Source: a virus
Virus record (IMG/VR): IMGVR_UViG_3300017987_000414
Coordinates: 1 to 21,245 of that record
Reading direction: 5' to 3' (one strand)
DNA: 21,245 nt
Shown: in pieces, positions 8,941 through 21,245 of the stretch
Layout of the letters: each line of letters opens with the position of its first letter
Position numbering within the stretch: position 1 is the stretch's first letter
Translations under genes and position numbers: made by a program
The notes under the pieces: generated by a model
Databases searched by the model: none
What the model was told of the DNA's origin: nothing
Seen by the model: only the letters and a program-made list of their open reading frames with translations

Positions 8941-9006
8941 ATGGCGACAATCATCCGACGCGAACACAAGGACTACGGCGGCGAGGAGTACGCGTATCGT
9001 GATTAG
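8941..9006 (+). CDS. Possible 21-aa peptide overlapping the next gene
   Basis: ATG 8941 opens a 21-codon frame (MATIIRREHKDYGGEEYAYRD) whose TAG lies 5 codons' width inside the next gene, whose GTG is at 8999. A GGAG at 8925-8928 is rather far (12 nt) upstream. The ribosome site of the next gene (GAGGAG 8983-8988) lies within this frame, so the peptide may serve to couple or regulate translation. No homologue is recognised; it may be chance. Confidence 0.35.
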   Translation: MATIIRREHKDYGGEEYAYRD

Positions 9007-10009
9007 CGCAAGCAATCTGGTCTATCCCCCGACCGTGACAGCGGACGCGGATCGCTACCGCTATCTCTATGCGGCCCTGGAACAACTCCGCCTCAAGCAC
9101 AATGAGCGCGCGGGCGACCTCACACCGCAAACGCTCTATTGGCGGCGTGAATGGCGGAAGCCTCACGATGGGATTATCCAAAACATACTGCCGCTGCGCG
9201 CGAGGTTGCGGACCCCTGACTGGCGCGTAAGCGATTCTGAGCCGGTCGATCCGGCGCTGGCTCTCTTGCGAGGCGAGGGCAAGGCGGATTATCGCAGTGC
9301 CGATTACAAGGTGCTGACCGGATTCGATCTGGACGGCGTTTCCGGCGCGATGAAGATCGAAGACCCGACGGCGGATTTCACTGCCTTTTCCAACACGAGC
9401 GACCCCGGCTCCGACATCATTGCCACCGCCTCTAAGCTGGACTTGAACGATGTTCGAGGGGACTCTGATACGTACTGGTGGGATGACCGTGGCGTCGACC
9501 ATTTTGGGGCGGCATTTGAACATCTGTTTGAGGCGACTCAATATGATTCCGGGTCCGACTACTATATCAGCCTGGTCATCTGGGGCGTTTCCAATGTCGC
9601 GGCGAACGAGGAATACCTTGACGACAATTCGTCTCAGGCGCTTTGCGTCTATTTGCGGACGCGCAACCCCACTACGTCCAGCGAGGTTTTCATCAAGGAT
9701 TACGAGGACGACAGCAGCGACAGCTATTCAGCCGTCTCAGCGGATATCAAGCATTATTACACGGCGGCGCGAACGAGCGAGACGGCGGTCCAGTGCATCA
9801 TCTACAGCGACGCAGGCAGGACATTGGACGAGGACACGATAGCGACCACGATCACGAGCGGCCGCCGCTACCGATATGGGGCTGGATGCGCCATCGAGAA
9901 CGACGGCGATTCGCGCGGCTTCACCGCCGACATCGAGAACCTCGATTGGCAGGAGGGGGGCGAGCCCCCAGCCACGAACCCACGGCGGAGGCTGCTCATA
10001 GGAGCATAG
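8999..10009 (+). CDS. Putative virion structural protein, unknown function
   Basis: 336-aa protein beginning at GTG 8999, with GAGGAG at 8983-8988. I do not recognise its family. The N-terminal third (YRYLYAALEQLRLKHNERAGDL) appears helical and arginine-rich. From about residue 120 the sequence alternates polar and aromatic residues with many Asp, Ser, Thr and Tyr (SGSDYYISLVIWGVSNVAANE, SDIIATASKLDLN), suggesting a beta-sandwich such as a lectin-like or jelly-roll domain. It ends in a basic RRRLLIGA tail. It lies between the decoration gene and the head-tail joining genes and overlaps a possible 21-aa leader. Likely a head- or tail-surface component; carbohydrate binding is a guess. Confidence 0.7.
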   Translation: MISASNLVYPPTVTADADRYRYLYAALEQLRLKHNERAGDLTPQTLYWRREWRKPHDGIIQNILPLRARLRTPDWRVSDSEPVDPALALLRGEGKADYRSADYKVLTGFDLDGVSGAMKIEDPTADFTAFSNTSDPGSDIIATASKLDLNDVRGDSDTYWWDDRGVDHFGAAFEHLFEATQYDSGSDYYISLVIWGVSNVAANEEYLDDNSSQALCVYLRTRNPTTSSEVFIKDYEDDSSDSYSAVSADIKHYYTAARTSETAVQCIIYSDAGRTLDEDTIATTITSGRRYRYGAGCAIENDGDSRGFTADIENLDWQEGGEPPATNPRRRLLIGA

Positions 10010-10010
10010 C

Positions 10011-11000
10011 ATGTACGCAAAACAGAGCACGGCGAAGAGCTTTCTGGTCGGGCCGATCCTCGATGCGGACGGCGCGGCGAAGACCGATGAAGTCGTCGCC
10101 TCCATCAAGGTCACGAAGAACGGCTCGGTCGGCGCCCCGAACGGCTCCTCGACGCTCACGCACAATCACACCGGCCACTACGTTTACGCGGCGAACGCGA
10201 ACGACTTCGACACGCTCGGCGAGGTCGTGTTTTCTCTAAACTCGGGCACGAACGCGATGTCGATCGTGCGCTTCCAGGTCCTGCCCGCGAACGTGTACGA
10301 CTCGCTCGTGAGCGGGTCGGATTATCTCGATGTGAACGCCGCCCAGGTTGAGGGCTCGGACGCGACGGATACGATTCAATCCTCGTGCGATGATGCGCTT
10401 GTCGCCAATCATCTCGACCATCTGCTCAAGACCGACTATGACCCATCCTCAAAGCCGGGCGTTGCGACGGCGCTGTTGAACGAGATCGTCGAAAACGACG
10501 GCGGCGTGTCGCGCTTCACGCAGAACGCCTTGGAACAGGCCCCGGACACCACCACGGGGATTGAGCTTGCCGACGACGCGATCACAGCGGCGAAGTTCGA
10601 CGAATCGACGGCCTATCCTGTCAAGAGCGCCGATACCGGCGCGACACAGATTGCGCGTGTGGGCGCTGACGGCGACACGCTTGAAGACCTCTCAGACGAG
10701 ATCGCGGCCATGCAGGACGATGTGACCACCATTGCCGGGGACGTGGAGAATATCGACGGTGACGCCATGCGTGGGACGGACGGCGCGGCCACGGCGGCGG
10801 AGGTCGTGACGGCGCTGCTGGCAAAGACAGGCTGGACTGAGGGGGGCACGACAACGATTGAAACGCTTTTGAAATCGCTGCTCGCCCTGACGCAGGGCAA
10901 AATCACGAAGGACGGCGATGACTACACGTTTTTTGACGATGACGGTCTAACGGAACTCTTCACGCTCACGATTGCGGCAGGATCGAGGACTCCAAGCTGA
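10011..11000 (+). CDS. Putative phage structural/fibre-like protein
   Basis: 329-aa acidic protein from ATG 10011, AGGAG at 10000-10004, one base after the previous stop. The N-terminal 105 residues (KQSTAKSFLVGPILDADGAA, TKNGSVGAPNGSSTLTHNHT, NAMSIVRFQVLPANVYDSLV) form a beta-rich module often seen in uncultured-phage proteins of unknown role. The middle is Asp/Ala/Thr-rich with helical heptad-like runs (DEIAAMQDDVTTIAGDVENI), consistent with a trimeric fibre shaft. The C-terminus (ITKDGDDYTFFDDDGLTELFTLTIA) looks like a small beta-domain of the kind that ends short fibres. The position amid head-tail genes suggests a head fibre or neck appendage. No enzyme motif is seen. Confidence 0.75.
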   Translation: MYAKQSTAKSFLVGPILDADGAAKTDEVVASIKVTKNGSVGAPNGSSTLTHNHTGHYVYAANANDFDTLGEVVFSLNSGTNAMSIVRFQVLPANVYDSLVSGSDYLDVNAAQVEGSDATDTIQSSCDDALVANHLDHLLKTDYDPSSKPGVATALLNEIVENDGGVSRFTQNALEQAPDTTTGIELADDAITAAKFDESTAYPVKSADTGATQIARVGADGDTLEDLSDEIAAMQDDVTTIAGDVENIDGDAMRGTDGAATAAEVVTALLAKTGWTEGGTTTIETLLKSLLALTQGKITKDGDDYTFFDDDGLTELFTLTIAAGSRTPS

Positions 11001-13567: not shown

Positions 13568-13827
13568 ACCCCGGGCCCTTCACCTTAGCCGAGCTTGTGG
13601 CGATGAGCACGGCCCGGGTGGATTCGGAATGGAATCATACCGCCGCGCTGCTCGCGCAGATCGCGAATGCGCACCGGGATCCGAAAAAGGGCCGCGCGCA
13701 CAAGCCGGATGATTATCACCCGCTGAGGGCCAGGCGGTCGAGCGGCGGGATTCCGATCACGAAAAAGAACATCGGCATGCTGAAGAAGATTTTCATCAGA
13801 GAGGATCGACATGGCAGGCGCCAGTGA
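13514..13827 (+). CDS. -1 frameshift extension of the tail assembly chaperone (gpGT-like T domain)
   Basis: In the -1 frame relative to the chaperone, an uninterrupted reading encodes WGLIWRCAGILGLNPGPFTL, then AELVAMSTARVDSEW, ALLAQIANAHRDPKKGRAHK and PDDYHP. This is the usual content of the downstream tail chaperone domain (Trp-rich start, AGxLGxxPG, EL..M, RDPKKG…PDDYHP). No ribosome site precedes the possible GTG 13597 or ATG 13603, supporting expression by frameshift rather than a new start. The start coordinate is approximate: the slip is expected at about 13507-13522. It ends at 13827, overlapping the tape measure start by 17 nt. The full G-T product would be about 245 residues. Confidence 0.75.
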
Positions 13828-16150
13828 CATCAAAGCCGGAGCGGCCTTCATCGAGCTCTACCTGAAGGATGCCGCGGTTATGAAAGGACTCGCGCGGACA
13901 CAGGCGCGGCTGAAGGCCTTCAGTGCGTCTCTGATGAGCTATGGCCGGAAGATGATCACCTTCGCCGCGGTGGCGGCTCTGCCCTTCGCCATTTCCCTCC
14001 GGACCTTCAGCCAATTTTCCGACAAGATGAGCGTGGTCCGGGCCGTCACGCAGGCCACCACCGATCAGTTCAAGGCACTGACCGAAGAGGCCAAGCGGCT
14101 CGGCCGCACCACGTCATTCACCGCCTCCCAGGTGGCCGAGGGCATGATCTCGCTCGGTCGAGCGGGATTCGGGTCGGATCAGATCCTCGCCGCGATTCCG
14201 GCCGTCCTCGATCTCGCGCGGGCCACGGATACCGAACTTGGCAACGCTGCCGAGATCGCCGCCGCCACCTTGCGCGGCTTCAAGATGGAGGCCACGGAGA
14301 CCACCCACGTGGCCGATGTGCTGACCGCCACGGCGAACGCCTCCGCCCAGACCCTGTCCGAACTCGGCGAGTCCATGAAATATGTCGCCCCGCTCGCAGC
14401 CGAGGCGAACGAATCCCTCGAGGACACCGCCGCCGCCCTGGGCCTCCTCGCCAACAATGGCATCAAGGGATCCATGGCCGGGACCGCGCTTGCGCGCGCC
14501 TTCAAAAATCTCACGCGCGAACCGGTTCAAAAGACCATCGCCGGGCTGGGCGTGGCAGCCGCCGACGTGGACGGTAATCTCCGTCCGGTCGCCGACATCC
14601 TGGGCGATATCGGACGCGCGACCGCGAAGATGGGGACCGCGAAACGGCTTTCGATCTTCGAGGCGGTCTTCGGACGCGGCCAGGCCGCCGCTTTGAAAAT
14701 GGCAAACGCCCAGGACTTTCAGGACATGCGCGCGGTCCTGACCGGCGTGGACGGCACTGCGCGCGAGACGGCCAAGACGATGGACGACAACCTGGGCGGA
14801 TCGTTCCGGCGCATGATGTCGGCCATCGAGGGCGTGCAGATCGCCATCGGCGAGGCGCTGACGCCGACCCTGCGCTCCTGGATGCAAGTCATCACCGGCG
14901 CGGCCGGCGCGGTGACGGCCCTGGTTGAGAAAAACCACGATCTCTTCGTGAGTGCGGTGAAGTGGATCGCCATCATTGGCGGGGCGGGCGCGGCGCTCCT
15001 CCTCCTGGGCACGCTGGCCGGCATCGCCTCCTTTGCACTGGGTGGGCTCCTTTCGATCATCTCCGCCATCGGGACCGGGCTGAGCATGCTGGTTTCGGCA
15101 ATCGGTTTTCTCCTCTCGCCGATAGGACTGATCATCGCGGCAGCCGGCGCGCTCGGCTATGCCATTTTCACCATGGCCGATCTCGGTGGGATCGCCCTTG
15201 GGTGGCTGGGCGATAAATGGGCCGAACTCAAGGGCGACGCTCAGGCGGCGATCGATGGGATCCGAGATGCCCTGATCGCCGGCGACCTCAGACTTGCGGC
15301 GCGCGTGCTCTGGGCCTTCCTGAAGCTCGAATGGACCAAGGGGACCTTCGCGCTGAAGGAGACCTGGTTTGCCGGGATGTCGGCCATGGAGAGTGGCATG
15401 ATCGAGGCGTTCTACGGGACACTGGCCGGCATGACCATCGTGTCGGACGGCCTCCGCTCCACCTGGGCCGTCGTGACAACCGAACTCGCGGACCTGTGGG
15501 GGAACTTCATCAACATGGTTCTCGTGGGATGGAACTCGGCATCCTCCTTCCTGCAGAAGGCGTGGACGCAGCTGAAGGGGTTCATCGATTCGGACATCGA
15601 TGTGGAGGCCGAGATCAAGCGCATCGAGGAGGAACGGGTTGCCAAAGAGACCCAGATCGACGTCGACTTCGCCCAGGAATCTCTCCGAAGGCGCGCGCAA
15701 CTCGATCGCGAGTTGGACAGAATCGAACGGGACAAGGTCGGGACCCTCGCCCAGATTGGGAGCGAGGCCGACAAGGCCCAGGCCGCGCGGCAGGCCGCCC
15801 AGGACAAGCAGGTCAAGGACCTCTATCGGCAACTCGCCCGGGCCAAGGCCGATCTTGCGGACGCCATCGCCGACGCAGCGGACGCGCGCGCGGGCGCCGA
15901 GGCCGAGGGGACGGACCTGCCGTCCCGAATCGAGGATTTAAAGGACCGCCTCAAAAACCTGATGGACGGCAGCCTCGGCGGCATCAGTGAAAAACTCGAA
16001 ACCCGCGGGACCTTCTCGGCGGTCGCGGCCTTCGGGATGGGCAAGGGGACTGAAGCCCTGGACGAGATGGCGGGCTATCTGAACAACATCGAACGCACGA
16101 ACCAGGACATCGCCGATGCGGCGCAAAACGGTTTGGCATTTGGACCCTGA
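13811..16150 (+). CDS. Tail tape measure protein
   Basis: 779-aa tape measure protein that fixes tail length, is packed inside the tube and is ejected with the DNA. Residues about 70-330 carry the TP901-type core (FSQFSDKMSVVRAVTQAT, GMISLGRAGFGSDQILAAIP, ALGLLANNGIKGSMAGTALA, AVFGRGQAAALK). Residues 380-465 are strongly hydrophobic and hold several candidate membrane segments (WIAIIGGAGAALLLLG, LLSPIGLIIAAAGALGYAI). Residues about 596-715 form a long charged coiled coil. The C-terminus has the common TRGTF…ERTNQDIADAAQNGLAF ending. If mostly helical at 1.5 Å per residue, the tail would be roughly 115 nm, a rough inference. AGAGGA lies 6 nt upstream of ATG 13811. Confidence 0.93.
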   Translation: MAGASDIKAGAAFIELYLKDAAVMKGLARTQARLKAFSASLMSYGRKMITFAAVAALPFAISLRTFSQFSDKMSVVRAVTQATTDQFKALTEEAKRLGRTTSFTASQVAEGMISLGRAGFGSDQILAAIPAVLDLARATDTELGNAAEIAAATLRGFKMEATETTHVADVLTATANASAQTLSELGESMKYVAPLAAEANESLEDTAAALGLLANNGIKGSMAGTALARAFKNLTREPVQKTIAGLGVAAADVDGNLRPVADILGDIGRATAKMGTAKRLSIFEAVFGRGQAAALKMANAQDFQDMRAVLTGVDGTARETAKTMDDNLGGSFRRMMSAIEGVQIAIGEALTPTLRSWMQVITGAAGAVTALVEKNHDLFVSAVKWIAIIGGAGAALLLLGTLAGIASFALGGLLSIISAIGTGLSMLVSAIGFLLSPIGLIIAAAGALGYAIFTMADLGGIALGWLGDKWAELKGDAQAAIDGIRDALIAGDLRLAARVLWAFLKLEWTKGTFALKETWFAGMSAMESGMIEAFYGTLAGMTIVSDGLRSTWAVVTTELADLWGNFINMVLVGWNSASSFLQKAWTQLKGFIDSDIDVEAEIKRIEEERVAKETQIDVDFAQESLRRRAQLDRELDRIERDKVGTLAQIGSEADKAQAARQAAQDKQVKDLYRQLARAKADLADAIADAADARAGAEAEGTDLPSRIEDLKDRLKNLMDGSLGGISEKLETRGTFSAVAAFGMGKGTEALDEMAGYLNNIERTNQDIADAAQNGLAFGP

Positions 16151-16152
16151 TC

Positions 16153-16977
16153 ATGGCAGCGGAAGTTACCGAACTTTTTGAAAATCGGCATGAGGTCATC
16201 GGCGAATCCGCCGAAATCCCTTATGGCGTCCTCGGCGCGGAGGACGAGGCCGCCGTGCGCGCGGCGGCCGAATCCGAGATCCCGGCCACGATGGACTCGA
16301 GCGGGGTCACGCTGGCGCTCAAAAGCGTCGAACTGGTCGAGCATCTCGACGTCACCACGTGGCGGCTGCGGGCGAAATATCGGAAGTCCTCATGGAATTG
16401 GTTCAGCCATCTGACGCCGCCCGACCCGCGTTTTTCCTTCGACACCTCGGGCGGGACGCAGCACATTACGCAATCGCGTGAGACGGTCAATTCCTACGGC
16501 CCGAAGAAGTCGGATGAACTCGGCGGGGCGATCGGCTTCGACGGCAAGACGGTCCAAGGGTGCGATATCGTCGTGCCGGTCTACAATTGGGCCGAGACGC
16601 ATTATTTCGAGGACGCGGATATCACCTCAGCCTATAAGCAGATCATCGCAGGCCTCACGGGCAAAACGAATAACGCATCCTTCAAGGGGTTTGATGAGGG
16701 CGAGGTCCTTTTCCTGGGGGCGACCGGGTCCCGCCAGGGCGACGATGACGACGATCTCTGGGAGATCACGTTCCGGTTTGCCGCGTCGCCGAACGAGACC
16801 GATTTGGAAGTCGGCGATATCGCCGGCATCGCCAAGTGGGGATGGGAATACCTCTGGGTGCAATACGGCGATACCGAAGACGCGGTCGCCAATCTTCTTG
16901 TGAAATCGCCCGTGGCGGTCTATATCGAGCGCGTCTATGACGCCGGCGACTTTTCGGACCTCAACATAGGAACATGA
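16153..16977 (+). CDS. Distal tail / baseplate-type protein, unknown family
   Basis: 274-aa protein following the tape measure by 2 nt. No good ribosome site is visible; translation is probably coupled to the tape measure. The sequence is beta-rich with recurrent aromatic and acidic positions: FSFDTSGGTQHITQSRETV, GGAIGFDGKTVQGCDIVVPV, GFDEGEVLFLGATGSRQGDD, LWEITFRFAASPNETDLEVG, GWEYLWVQYGD. I recall similar proteins next to tape measure genes in uncultured phages but cannot name a characterised family. By position (after tape measure, before fibre) it is the equivalent of the distal tail protein or baseplate hub. No enzymatic motif is visible. Its last four bases overlap the next gene (ATGA). 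Confidence 0.7.
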   Translation: MAAEVTELFENRHEVIGESAEIPYGVLGAEDEAAVRAAAESEIPATMDSSGVTLALKSVELVEHLDVTTWRLRAKYRKSSWNWFSHLTPPDPRFSFDTSGGTQHITQSRETVNSYGPKKSDELGGAIGFDGKTVQGCDIVVPVYNWAETHYFEDADITSAYKQIIAGLTGKTNNASFKGFDEGEVLFLGATGSRQGDDDDDLWEITFRFAASPNETDLEVGDIAGIAKWGWEYLWVQYGDTEDAVANLLVKSPVAVYIERVYDAGDFSDLNIGT

Positions 16978-18596
16978 CCACTGCTCTCGAAAAAGTTAGA
17001 ACAGGGCAATCCTTCAGGCCCAAGGCCGATACATGGAATGCCTTTGTCCACGCCGCGCAATATGTCCGCGATCGCGAGATTGGGGGCGGGGCGCGCATCG
17101 GAGACCTGGCGCGGGGCGAGACCGTCACGATCAAGAACTCGAGCGGCGCGGACCGCGCGCGCTTCAACGTCCTGGCCGTCTCGGACATCCTCATCGATCC
17201 GGACGCCAACGAATCCGAGTTCATCCGCACGATGGCGCTCGACTGTGACCTGGTCGAAAACGTCGCAGGCGAGAATGCGCTCCTCTACGTGATTTTGCAG
17301 GAGCCGATTGTGGGCGACGGCCTCGGCCAGGCCCTGCTCGACGGCATCACCCCCTGCAAAGTCTACGTCCACAACGAGGACCATCAATATGCCCTGCCGG
17401 GGGTCGATCCCGGTTATCTCGACTCGGCGGCTGCCGGCATTGCGAAGATCCTCTGGAAGGGCGCCGGCACAGGCGAACAGTGGGCTTTGGTGCGGATCCC
17501 CGCCGAGGACGGCCAGTCCATCCGGCTCTACAATGCTTCGGGCGGCATTCTGAGCGACGGGTACGTGTGCGGGATCGATGGGATGGAGACCGGCGGTCCG
17601 CCGTTCGCCTTTCGCGCGATAAAGCCGACATCAGATCATCAGATCAACATTCTCCCCATGGGCGGTCCCGACCTGGAGAATGATGCCGGGCGCTGGGTCC
17701 CGCTTGGTCCGGTCATGCGCTACCGGCTCAGGGGGAGGATCACTGTCGCGCCGGGCGAGTCAGTCGGCGCGGCTGCCGGATCCCATCTTCTGGAACTCGG
17801 CAACCTCGGCTACATCATCCTGGGTGAGGAGATCGTCTCGGTCGATGAGCGGTATGTTTACGTCGTGCATGGCGACGGAGCCACCCCCACGGGGACCGGC
17901 ACAATCACGAACCCGGAGACGCCAAGCGCCACCACGGAACCGGCCACGGGATCCGCCACCGAAGGCACGGGGAGCGAAACCGAACCCGAAGGGACAGAAT
18001 CCGACACCGGAACCGGAACGGAGGGAACAGGGACCGACACCGAGACCGGGAGCGAAGGCACTCCGTGGGAGGAGACCGACACCGAACCCGGCACAGACAC
18101 CGACACCGGGACCGGGACGGAGGGGACGGGGACCGACACCGAGACCGGGACGGATACGAGCGGAACCGGGACGGACACGACGGGAACGGCCAGCGATACG
18201 GAGACGCTGACGCCGTCTGCCGGCGGCAATGGGTGCAATGATTGCAACCCGGCGATCCCCGACAAGCTGTATGTGACGCTGTCGGGGCTGGGCGGAGATT
18301 TCGCAACCGACATCGGAGACGGCAAGCACACGGTCGCTCACCACGCCGGATGTGACTGGTATGAGAGCACGGACCCGTCGGTTCCCGCTGTGCCTTATAT
18401 ACATCTTTGGTGGGACACCGATCATTGGTACGTGCAGATCGTCGTGGGCGTCAACTGTACGCTCAAGTGGCAGGGACCAGCTGACGAATGCGAGCCGTGG
18501 GACGGATCATATGCGTGGCACACATGCACGGATATTACGTGCTCCGGCTCCTGTGCCGCGTCGTCCGGTGCGTCGTGCTCCGTCAGTTGGAACTAG
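16974..18596 (+). CDS. Fibre/adhesin-like tail protein with Thr-Gly-Glu-Asp repeat linker and Cys-rich C-terminal domain
   Basis: 540-aa protein, ATG 16974 overlapping the previous stop (ATGA), TAGGAA just upstream. Residues about 1-300 form a beta-rich body that likely mounts the protein on the tail tip (TGQSFRPKADTWNAFVHAAQ, GDLARGETVTIKN, RWVPLGPVMRYRLRGRITVA). Residues about 303-418 are a low-complexity linker of Thr, Gly, Glu, Ser and Asp; the 16-residue unit DTGTGTEGTGTDTETG occurs twice. The last 120 residues form a compact aromatic domain with nine cysteines (PDKLYVTLSGLGGDF, YIHLWWDTDHWYVQIVVGVN), probably a receptor-binding head. The linker resembles mucin-like glycosylated stretches. 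Host recognition is inferred from position and architecture, not from a family match. Confidence 0.72.
   Translation: MTTALEKVRTGQSFRPKADTWNAFVHAAQYVRDREIGGGARIGDLARGETVTIKNSSGADRARFNVLAVSDILIDPDANESEFIRTMALDCDLVENVAGENALLYVILQEPIVGDGLGQALLDGITPCKVYVHNEDHQYALPGVDPGYLDSAAAGIAKILWKGAGTGEQWALVRIPAEDGQSIRLYNASGGILSDGYVCGIDGMETGGPPFAFRAIKPTSDHQINILPMGGPDLENDAGRWVPLGPVMRYRLRGRITVAPGESVGAAAGSHLLELGNLGYIILGEEIVSVDERYVYVVHGDGATPTGTGTITNPETPSATTEPATGSATEGTGSETEPEGTESDTGTGTEGTGTDTETGSEGTPWEETDTEPGTDTDTGTGTEGTGTDTETGTDTSGTGTDTTGTASDTETLTPSAGGNGCNDCNPAIPDKLYVTLSGLGGDFATDIGDGKHTVAHHAGCDWYESTDPSVPAVPYIHLWWDTDHWYVQIVVGVNCTLKWQGPADECEPWDGSYAWHTCTDITCSGSCAASSGASCSVSWN
18003..18150 (+). repeat. Two 49-nt direct repeats in the fibre linker (18003-18051, 18102-18150)
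   Basis: Copies are 99 nt apart and identical at 45 of 49 positions. All four differences are A/G changes in third codon positions, so both copies encode the same 16 residues, DTGTGTEGTGTDTETG. This looks like selection for the peptide rather than a recent copying event. Confidence 0.85.
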
Positions 18597-18609: not shown

Positions 18610-19014
18610 ATGGCTGAAATGAGCAAGCATTTCCCTTGGCTCGATGCGACCGAGGACGCGAAATACCTCAAGGGCGAGCATGGGAAAACATCGGACCGCT
18701 GGTTGTCTGCGCCCAAATTGGACCCGTGCTGGCGGGGGGATTACCGGGAATGGCACATCGAGGACGGCAAGTGCTCCCAGGTGCAGTGCTATTGCAGGTT
18801 TTGGCGGCGGTGGATCAACGCGAGCGGCGCCGCGTGTGTGCGCTGCACGCAGAGGGCGTGGCCGGATGTCGAACTTTATCGCGCGCATTTCCTGCCCGGC
18901 CTTGACAAGGAGGCTCAGGAGGCGGCCGTTCTCAGAGCGGTGCAATCTGGGCAACTCACAGAGGCCGAGGCGGTTAAGTTGGGAGCGGAATTTGAGTTGG
19001 GAAGATCGAGTTAG
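18610..19014 (+). CDS. 134-aa Cys-rich protein, unknown function
   Basis: Starts at ATG 18610 with GAGG (18598-18601) 8 nt upstream, 13 nt after the fibre stop. I do not recognise the family. Six cysteines (C40, C55, C60, C62, C76, C79) are concentrated in the central part (CSQVQCYCRFWRRW, then CVRCTQRAW), suggesting a zinc site or disulphide-bonded fold. The C-terminal 40 residues form one or two helices (GLDKEAQEAAVLRAVQSGQL, TEAEAVKLGAEFEL). It stands between the Cys-rich fibre and the glycosyltransferase gene, whose start overlaps its 3' end by 23 nt. A fibre chaperone or a partner of the transferase is possible, with no direct support. Confidence 0.65.
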   Translation: MAEMSKHFPWLDATEDAKYLKGEHGKTSDRWLSAPKLDPCWRGDYREWHIEDGKCSQVQCYCRFWRRWINASGAACVRCTQRAWPDVELYRAHFLPGLDKEAQEAAVLRAVQSGQLTEAEAVKLGAEFELGRSS

Positions 19015-21245
19015 AGAGGCGGCGGCAGGTATCCGTCGTGCGATCGCGGTCCCGTGCAGGCCGTGTCGGCAGACGCCCGTTCATCAGCCGCTGATCTCCA
19101 TCTGCATCAACACGCACAATGAAGGCCCGCGCCTCCGGTTGACCGTGGCTGCCCTTCACAAGAATCTTCGCGGCTGGCCGCACGAATTTATCATCATCGC
19201 GGACGGTGTCACGGACGGATGCTGCGACGGTCTCGACTCGATTGCGTCGGATATCTCGATTCGCATCATCCGCAACGATCCGTGCAAAGGCTGCGGCCGC
19301 GCGAAGGGGCAGGCCGTCGAAGCGGCGAAAGGCGAGGTCCTTGTTTTTCTCGACGCGCACATGAATGTCATTGCGGGCCGCGTCTCGGCCATGGCGCTGC
19401 GCGCCGATGCTGAGGAGGCCATCTTCACGCCGGTTATTCGGAACATTAAATATACTTCGGACTGGGCGATTGAACCCGTCGGCTCCGGCGAGAACCAGAT
19501 CCCTTACGACAAGGGCATGCGATTCTGCAAGCATCAATACCGGAAGCGTCCGAATGGCTGGTTGAAGGAAAACCATCTCGCGGAGATCCGCATGGTGGGC
19601 GTCGGGTTCGCCATCAGCCGCAAGACGCTCGCGCGCATCGGCGGCTTCAACGCCTACCACGGGCGGCACGGCTCCCAGGAGCGCGGCATCAGCCTCCGCG
19701 CCTTCATGGCTCAGGTCCCGGTCAAGCTCGACACATCGGTTATCCTCGGTCACGAGTTCCGCGCCGGGCGCAAGCGGCCGAAAAACTGGAAGCGTGTCGG
19801 CGTCCGCGACCAGGCGAAGAACTTCTGGCACGCCTATTTCATTGTCGCCGGCGACGAGGCCTGGCCGGAGATCGCGCGCCTCCTGCCGGCCAAGGCGCGG
19901 CGCGGCGACGGCGTCCTGAAATGCAATGACGTGAAGTCCGAGCGCGACCGCTTTCAGCGCGATTGCAAGCGCCGGTCCGACGCCGAGCTGCTCAAGTTGC
20001 TCGGGATGGCCACGCCCGCCCTGGCTGAGGTCGACGAGATCGAGGGAATATCCACAAAGGGAATGCCGCCGGAGTTCGTGAAGCGCTGGCGGAAGGCCAG
20101 ATCGCTTGGCCTCATCATCATCCAGCATCCGGCCGAGATGGTCGAGGTCTGGAAGGCCGTCGCTCAGCAGCGGCCCGATTCCATGATCGAGATCGGCAGC
20201 GAGACCGGCGGCGCGCTCTACGTCTATGCCGGGGCCTGCGCGAAGGGCGCGCGCATCGTCTCGGTCGACCTGGGCGCGACCCTGCGCACCGTCCAGCACC
20301 TGCCGCGCACGATTCAGGAATTGGAGAATGAAGGGTTCGACGCGCATTGGCTCAAGGCCGACTCGAAGGACGCCCGCACGATCGGGCAGGCGCGGAAGCT
20401 CGCGGGCGATTCCATCGGCTTCCTGCACATTGACGGCAATCATTCGCGCGAGGGCGTGACCGCCGACGGGGAAAACTATTCGCCCCTGGTTCAGCCGGGC
20501 GGGATCATCGCCCTGCATGATGCCGCGAATCCCAGGACCGGCGTGCCGGGCTTCTGGGCGGCGCTGGACAAGACCGGCCATGAGGCCGCGCTCCATTGCG
20601 CGGGCAAGCTCGGCCAACATATCGAAATGGGCATCGGGATGATTCGGATAGGAGGAGCATCGAAAGTGCAAGCGGACAAGACCGTCAAGCCCGGCATTTC
20701 GGAACCCAAGATCGACGTCCATATCGCTTATGAGCCCGGCGGACGCATCGGCGCGGACTATAACCGCATCATGCGCGAGTCGCCGCACGAATGGGTTTTG
20801 CTCCTCGATCACGATGTCCTGATCCTCCATCCCTCATGGTATGAGGTCTGCCAGCGCGCGATCCGAGAACATCCGAAAGCCGGGATCCTGACCTGCTGGA
20901 CGAACAACATCGCCTGCAAACACCAGAAGGACCTCGACGCGCCCGCCGGCCACGACCTCATTGCGCACCGCGAGCGCGCGCGAGCGCTCTGGAACCAGCA
21001 TGGCTACCGCTGCTCCCGGAATCGGCGGTGGCTCATCGCCGGATTCTTCATGCTCACGAGCAAGGCCGCCTGGAAAGCGGCAAGGGGGTTCCCTGAGGAT
21101 TCCTTCTTCGGCGTGGACAATGAATACGATCGCCGGGTCCGCCGAGCCGGATTCGAGACCTGGCGCCTGGACGGCCTCTATTGCTATCACATCCGCGAGC
21201 GCAGGGATGGCGACTGGATCGAGGGCGTGGCCACGTCGGCCACCC
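18992..21245 (+). CDS. Glycosyltransferase-methyltransferase-glycosyltransferase fusion protein (3' incomplete)
   Basis: At least 751 residues, open to the window end. I chose TTG 18992, preceded by GGGAG (18981-18985) 6 nt away; the frame has no earlier good start. Domain 1 (about 34-245) is a GT-A glycosyltransferase: LISICINTHNEGPRLRLTVA, metal-binding-type DAH at 121-123, a later GGFNAYHGRHGSQERGISLR resembling the acceptor/metal region of polypeptide GalNAc- and GT2-type enzymes. Domain 2 (about 380-545) is a class I SAM methyltransferase of the cephalosporin-hydroxylase-like/Methyltransf_24 type: MIEIGSETGG (398-407), D426, HIDGNHS (479-485), HD 509-510. Domain 3 (from about 573) is a second GT-A domain with DHD at 606-608, FFGVDNEYDRRV and a late His733. 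Substrates cannot be predicted. It may modify virion proteins, host surface sugars or DNA. Confidence 0.85.
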   Translation, partial: MSWEDRVREAAAGIRRAIAVPCRPCRQTPVHQPLISICINTHNEGPRLRLTVAALHKNLRGWPHEFIIIADGVTDGCCDGLDSIASDISIRIIRNDPCKGCGRAKGQAVEAAKGEVLVFLDAHMNVIAGRVSAMALRADAEEAIFTPVIRNIKYTSDWAIEPVGSGENQIPYDKGMRFCKHQYRKRPNGWLKENHLAEIRMVGVGFAISRKTLARIGGFNAYHGRHGSQERGISLRAFMAQVPVKLDTSVILGHEFRAGRKRPKNWKRVGVRDQAKNFWHAYFIVAGDEAWPEIARLLPAKARRGDGVLKCNDVKSERDRFQRDCKRRSDAELLKLLGMATPALAEVDEIEGISTKGMPPEFVKRWRKARSLGLIIIQHPAEMVEVWKAVAQQRPDSMIEIGSETGGALYVYAGACAKGARIVSVDLGATLRTVQHLPRTIQELENEGFDAHWLKADSKDARTIGQARKLAGDSIGFLHIDGNHSREGVTADGENYSPLVQPGGIIALHDAANPRTGVPGFWAALDKTGHEAALHCAGKLGQHIEMGIGMIRIGGASKVQADKTVKPGISEPKIDVHIAYEPGGRIGADYNRIMRESPHEWVLLLDHDVLILHPSWYEVCQRAIREHPKAGILTCWTNNIACKHQKDLDAPAGHDLIAHRERARALWNQHGYRCSRNRRWLIAGFFMLTSKAAWKAARGFPEDSFFGVDNEYDRRVRRAGFETWRLDGLYCYHIRERRDGDWIEGVATSAT
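20650..20668 (+). promoter_or_regulatory. Internal ribosome site before the second glycosyltransferase domain
   Basis: AGGAGGAG (20650-20657) is followed 8 nt later by an in-frame GTG (20666). Initiation there would give a protein holding only the third, glycosyltransferase, domain. It falls exactly in the linker between methyltransferase and second transferase. The bases also encode Gly-Gly-Ala of the linker, so chance is possible. Confidence 0.45.

Follow-up and report, generated by a model that had tools for sequence, protein, structure and literature searches.

A predicted glycosyltransferase-methyltransferase-glycosyltransferase fusion with a GalNAc-transferase-like head domain behind the tail genes of a phage related to Planctomycetota prophages

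Introduction

To our knowledge, glycosylated phage virions have rarely been documented, three-domain glycan builders that combine glycosyltransferase (GT) and methyltransferase (MT) domains are known from few systems, and few phages of Planctomycetota have been characterised. Two described enzymes carry two GT domains and one methyltransferase domain on a single polypeptide. The chlorovirus protein A064R of PBCV-1 assembles the outer portion of the capsid N-glycan and caps it by methylation (PMC9614988). WsaE of Geobacillus stearothermophilus is trifunctional, with two GT domains and one O-methyltransferase, and terminates S-layer glycan chains (PMC2943079). For bacterial viruses, PMC11256854 describes virion proteins of mycobacteriophages (Che8, Rita) that are reported or proposed to be glycosylated by phage-encoded GTs (citing Freeman et al. 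2023). The same paper places the GT genes of phage Maravista near the 3' end of the genome, with the capsid protein as the proposed acceptor.

The gene analysed here lies at the 3' end of a 21,245-bp IMG/VR contig, the whole of which is referred to as the window. Like A064R and WsaE, its product is a single polypeptide that contains two GT domains and a SAM methyltransferase, but the domain order is GT-MT-GT. A064R has the order GT-GT-MT and a different GT-A type in its first domain, and it extends an existing N-glycan in a eukaryotic host, whereas the window belongs to a tailed phage and its first domain resembles polypeptide GalNAc-transferases. WsaE is arranged MT-GT-GT and serves a cellular S-layer glycan rather than being a phage enzyme. 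Maravista differs in the location of its GT genes, and no three-domain fusion is described in PMC11256854. Thermobifida phage P1312 likewise has, behind its tail genes, a similar MT domain (28% identity) next to a gene for a glycosyl/glycerophosphate transferase, but its O-methyltransferase and transferase are separate genes; no match to the first domain was found in this phage. GT and MT fusions also occur among annotated viral proteins: one from Catovirus, for example, is labelled 'glycosyltransferase and methyltransferase domain protein', and another, from an uncultured Caudovirales, is an FkbM protein that has a GT fold. No published account of a phage GalNAc-transferase-like fusion family was found in the literature searched, outside which most subscription journals lie. 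A GT-MT-GT phage enzyme with a GalNAc-transferase-like initiating domain thus appears to be new, while multi-domain GT/MT enzymes as such are already known.

Results and Discussion

Gene order and host group

The linear contig shows the structural gene order terminase, portal, protease-capsid fusion, tape measure and further tail genes. The tail region preceding the fusion contains:

13811..16150, + strand, tape measure protein (PF10145, E 7.4e-50; PHROG tape measure)
16153..16977, + strand, synteny marker, a conserved protein of the tail region (248 viral and 132 genome stretches have homologs)
16974..18596, + strand, putative tail/fibre protein and candidate acceptor (N-terminus conserved; C-terminal half of Thr/Ser-rich tandem repeats)
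17889..18248, + strand, Thr/Ser/Gly/Asp/Glu repeat tract within it (TGTGTDTETGTDTSGTG; up to 47% Ser+Thr in any 60 aa; tandem repeats at 18001-18187)

Genomes with homologs of the marker gene are mostly Planctomycetota, complete chromosomes among them. Judged by sequence, the phage belongs to a large group that occurs as Planctomycetota prophages, and planctomycete bacteria are most likely its host. The tail block at loci L182-L261 is present in many Planctomycetota genomes, sometimes twice per genome (for example in CP054186.1), so that it may represent either a very common prophage or a domesticated element.

Other parts of the window were also inspected. A ParB-like nuclease domain fused to a DNA methyltransferase domain (PHROG) is encoded 5' of the terminase (1-1554). 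In the phages nearest to the window by terminase, portal and capsid, another GT fusion occupies the capsid-tail interval (L021:8553-10289, likewise L002, L003, L114 and L116); it is PF04488-like with a second half that looks GT-B-like by eye. At this position the window has two unrelated genes of 336 and 329 aa (8999-11000), neither with a PHROG match and the former also without a Pfam match.

One open frame with three catalytic domains

The 3' end of the window was resolved into two overlapping genes:

18610..19014, + strand, 134-aa gene whose 3' end overlaps the start of the fusion (codon-position GC, sequence)
18992..21245, + strand, GT-MT-GT fusion with a TTG start and a 3' end that lies outside the contig, 751 aa read (open frame, codon-position GC, Pfam and PHROG domains)

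The frame 18992-21244 comprises 751 codons without a stop and runs off the contig end. GC content by codon position supports a single coding frame from about 19000 to the contig end, unbroken across both inter-domain junctions, while the coding signal 5' of about 19000 lies in a different frame. The ATG at 18644, from which the mechanical open reading frame starts, was rejected because the stretch from there to about 19000 is coded in that other frame. The true start is likely to be the TTG at 18992. The 134-aa gene had no homologs among the fetched loci. Its presence corrects the first-pass annotation, which had put the fusion directly behind a fibre gene: the fusion does follow a Ser/Thr-rich gene, but the 134-aa gene intervenes. 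The same annotation regarded this placement as non-standard. In Planctomycetota prophages, GT genes recur in the slot behind these tail genes; the placement in the window is therefore one instance of a pattern seen in the group.

Within the fusion, four segments were delineated:

19088..19846, + strand, domain 1, GT-A, polypeptide-GalNAc-transferase-like (PF00535; PDB, profile and Foldseek matches)
19847..20062, + strand, helical linker whose conservation accompanies that of domain 1 (CKRRSDAELLKLLG; alignment to L301 and L329; AF2 helix)
20105..20665, + strand, domain 2, class I SAM O-methyltransferase of Methyltransf_24/CmcI type (Pfam; profile of 15 homologs)
20687..21244, + strand, domain 3, short GT-A glycosyltransferase whose C-terminal end is cut by the contig end (PHROG 14179; AF2; L328)

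The claim of three catalytic domains in one frame was borne out by Pfam, PHROG and, for the GT domains, fold prediction, and the motif residues given for them (DAH 121, MIEIGSETGG 398, HIDGNHS 479, HD 509 and DHD 606) proved exact.

Domain 1 resembles polypeptide GalNAc-transferases

Domain 1 matches Pfam Glycos_transf_2 (PF00535) above the curated cut-off (E 7.9e-20). It carries the DxH motif as DAH (19352-19360), followed by GSQERGISLR from 19670 (residue 227) and GHEFR from 19748 (residue 253). When the whole protein was compared with solved structures as a single sequence, the top matches were mainly polypeptide GalNAc-transferases (best E 6.3e-8). A profile of six domain 1 homologs matched a GalNAc-transferase over the full catalytic domain (E 1.6e-32), pairing DxH with DAH, HGSQERGISLR with WGGENIEMSFR and GHEFR with GHVFR. 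An AF2 model of moderate confidence (mean pLDDT 66, core blocks mostly above 85) returned GalNAc-T2 as the best Foldseek match (E 2e-14). The linker is modelled with low confidence except for one long helix (model residues 286-311). An unrelated planctomycete GT2 domain, run as a control, matched other GT2 enzymes and not GalNAc-transferases. The corresponding domain of a relative (L328, 50% identity) matched GalNAc-transferases only; that of a further relative (L329) gave no PDB matches on its own. By sequence and model, domain 1 is thus predicted to be specifically polypeptide GalNAc-transferase-like.

With the GT27 polypeptide GalNAc-transferases, domain 1 shares a GT-A catalytic domain, the DxH metal motif and the GxxE, GxExxxxSxR and GHxFR segments. 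It differs from them in its low identity (about 20%), its fusion to MT and GT domains, its origin in a bacterial virus and the absence of a C-terminal ricin-type lectin domain in a Pfam scan, a methyltransferase standing in its place. Without the lectin domain, domain 1 is called GT27-like and not filed as a GT27 member.

Domains 2 and 3 complete the fusion

Domain 2 retains intact methyltransferase motifs (MIEIGSETGG at 20183-20212, HIDGNHS from 20426 and HD from 20516). It scored above the Pfam cut-offs for Methyltransf_24 (E 3.3e-12; 47.7 bits versus 26.3) and RMNT_CmcI (E 4.2e-10; 40.1 bits versus 23.2). Domain 3 contains a DHD motif at 20807-20815. Against Pfam PF00535 and PF13712 it stayed below the gathering score (PF13712 E 0.11; 12.7 bits versus 27) and was therefore assigned by PHROG and predicted fold: it corresponds to the glycosyltransferases PHROG 14179 and 26101 (E 8.8e-7 and 6.1e-6), and its AF2 model, again of moderate confidence (mean pLDDT 70), is a GT-A fold nearest to chondroitin polymerase and beta-1,4-galactosyltransferase 7 (beta4GalT7). 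The MT domain and domain 3 were aligned separately, as a joint alignment of the fragments was misaligned. The first-pass annotation had left its reading dependent on the folds; both GT domains were modelled as GT-A, and the 15-homolog profile of domain 2 matched solved class I O-methyltransferases (E 1.6e-12).

These fold families also bear on the substrate. Phages use GTs on DNA, as the T-even glucosyltransferases exemplify, and PHROG 2675 labels a similar methyltransferase 'DNA methyltransferase'. Sugar hypermodification of phage DNA bases is nevertheless a very improbable role for this enzyme, given an MT domain of the small-molecule/sugar O-methyltransferase type and GT folds of the GalNAc-transferase and chondroitin polymerase types.

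The head domain recurs in differently assembled enzymes

Direct tblastn of phage records and a first viral scan recovered no second fusion. Patterns made from single sequences proved too strict; L328 and L329 emerged once patterns were built from alignments. Nor was the fusion found in 15 relatives picked by capsid protein, many of whose contigs end too early to show it. Two chromosomal GT fusions with TPR repeats and another domain order (L302, L306) were set aside.

Three relatives share the head domain. L328, whose marker gene is 52% identical to that of the window, joins domain 1 straight to domain 3 without a methyltransferase and ends within domain 3 at its own contig end. L301 is a prophage piece from a Planctomycetota genome with the same marker gene; two genes past the marker's neighbour it encodes an 891-aa protein in the order GT1-GT9-MT (Glyco_transf_9 5.7e-25; Methyltransf_24 1.2e-12), in which GT1 plus linker is 25% identical to the window over 356 columns. 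L329 derives from a different phage without the marker gene, and its 62-kb contig contains a complete 477-aa GT1-Methyltransf_24 enzyme. The fusions of the window, L328 and L301 lie behind the same tail genes. Domain 1 of all four enzymes forms one clade (support 95/98), and by sequence the GalNAc-transferase-like head domain occurs in at least four different combinations with methyltransferase, GT-A and GT9 modules. Domain order in the window is supported by L329 (GT1 to MT, direct) and L301 (with GT9 between), and by L328 for GT1 to GT3; the MT-to-GT3 junction is seen solely in the window.

Could the fusion be an assembly chimera, or a decaying or non-expressed gene? It lies where the contig ends; L026, a contig 99.9% identical to the window, breaks off at 18482, leaving the window's fusion without an independent assembly; and an exact search of viral contigs found no second one with its 3' part. 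Against this stand the continuous coding signal, the intact motifs and the single-frame GT1-MT, GT1-GT3 and GT1-GT9-MT enzymes of the relatives. Since four domain 1 enzymes fall into one supported clade, they are better explained as a family of shuffling modules, and a chimeric frame, which the first-pass annotation had raised against itself, is very improbable, as is a decaying or non-expressed gene.

Conservation between the window and L328 is far higher in domain 3 than in domain 1 (50%): window 20702-20811 and L328:8943-9052 are 84% identical over 38 aa and 80% over 110 nt, and L328 ends there. This shared stretch is possibly a recombination hot spot that also breaks assemblies.

Ser/Thr-rich tail proteins adjoin GT genes

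The N-terminus of the 16974-18596 product is conserved as the gene after the marker in about 60 loci, while its C-terminus is highly variable and often repeat-rich. Related arrangements were found elsewhere. A PTPTPTPT tract, with Thr at 30 and Pro at 36 of 78 residues, makes up the second half of a 133-aa open reading frame that the L329 fusion overlaps by 4 nt; by its sequence, the product of this frame would resemble a classical mucin-like acceptor. L328 encodes an 863-aa ASPSPSEQS-repeat protein three genes upstream of its fusion; a 778-aa protein with a C-terminal methyltransferase domain lies between the two. A PTPTPT tract is present in the same-slot gene of L116, which is among the nearest relatives by terminase, portal and capsid. 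In the window, L328 and L329, a GT gene is thus located in the structural block beside a putative acceptor.

The association was counted with near-copies taken once, the window added and at least 1 kb required beyond the tail protein; L301 was not counted, since it had been fetched through a GT match. GT genes followed Ser/Thr-rich non-Hint tail proteins in 7/7 cases, compared with 1/33 loci without such a protein (Fisher p 4e-7), although the loci are related and the background count may be too low, since GTs were detected by profiles seeded from Ser/Thr-rich loci and by Pfam tallies among the 25 families listed. The GT genes behind Ser/Thr-rich proteins include:

L102, GT4-type and GT2-GT-B fusion
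L133, GT2 whose C-terminus looks MT-like by eye
L168 and L082, mannosyltransferase family, L168 also with an FkbM methyltransferase
L230, GT25-sulfotransferase fusion
L242/L243, GT2-GT-B

A rule that a GT adjoins every Ser/Thr-rich tail protein was rejected, as Hint-bearing SG-rich tail proteins had an adjoining GT in 9/26 cases, mostly PF04488.

A proposed role in tail glycosylation

It is proposed, with a probability of about 0.55, that the fusion is a modular phage glycan-assembly enzyme that O-glycosylates the adjacent Ser/Thr-rich tail protein and extends and methyl-caps the resulting glycan. The enzyme would be expressed with the tail genes. Domain 1 would transfer a first sugar onto Ser/Thr of the repeat-rich tail protein, most likely the 16974-18596 product; domain 3, the second GT-A domain, would add one or more further sugars; and domain 2 would O-methylate a sugar, whereupon growth would end, a scheme for which A064R and WsaE are precedents. 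The benefit may be virion protection or an altered surface, or altered adsorption. Computed support is provided by the three in-frame domains, their fold families and intact motifs, the head domain shared by four enzymes and the association of GT genes with Ser/Thr-rich proteins, while we infer activity, step order, sugar identity, acceptor and benefit. The building and capping of a short glycan appears to be the best-supported reading of the domain content. Weighing against the proposal are the absence of the lectin domain that animal GalNAc-transferases carry and the composition of the window's repeat tract, in which Asp, Glu and Gly abound besides Thr.

The choice of acceptor is where other explanations compete. 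Phage GTs serve in serotype conversion, and the same enzyme type could remodel a host surface glycan or glycolipid (superinfection exclusion, serotype conversion) and not a virion protein. Many GT-A homologs sit in bacterial chromosomes, those related to domain 1 in planctomycete ones, and the tail protein next to the L301 fusion is not Ser/Thr-rich; both observations count against a tail-protein acceptor. Remodelling of the host is still judged somewhat unlikely, because the fusion gene follows the tail genes and shares their strand, domain 1 has its nearest matches among protein-modifying GalNAc-transferases and the L329 fusion overlaps a PT-repeat open reading frame. Alternatively, the virion may be glycosylated on another structural protein, such as the major capsid or tail tube protein, with the Ser/Thr-rich neighbour being incidental. 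The glycosylated mycobacteriophage protein reported in PMC11256854 is indeed the major capsid protein, but GT genes consistently adjoin Ser/Thr-rich tail proteins, which makes this option improbable.

Modification of the neighbouring tail protein, the favoured reading, could be part of something broader. Tentatively, planctomycete phages might possess a mucin-type O-glycosylation system composed of a lectin-less GalNAc-transferase-like domain, shuffled GT/MT modules and PT-, SG- or TG-repeat tail proteins next door. If such a system existed, tailed phages would be making and methyl-capping their own tail mucin. A recurrent shuffling enzyme beside mucin-like tail proteins would offer a simple enzyme-acceptor pair for O-glycosylation in bacterial viruses, and the family would hint at how Planctomycetota phages present or mask their tails.

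Further GT genes behind tail proteins

Several loci (L034, L046, L047, L057, L190, L194, L220, L228 and others) encode, 3' of the marker, SG-rich proteins with an embedded Hint-like (self-processing) domain, often with a small PF04488 glycosyltransferase behind them. In L133:16147-18186, a GT2 protein follows a tail protein with a Thr/Ser run of about 60 residues; its C-terminus looks methyltransferase-like (IVLHDTARN) and has no Pfam matches. In L102:12650-16671 and L242:14212-17409, poly-Ser/Gly tail proteins are followed by GT genes among which a radical SAM gene or domain is interspersed. Two planctomycete prophages carry GT25-sulfotransferase fusions directly or closely 3' of Ser/Thr-rich tail proteins (L230:14125-15447 and L252:13116-14849), which suggests sulfated tail-protein glycans.
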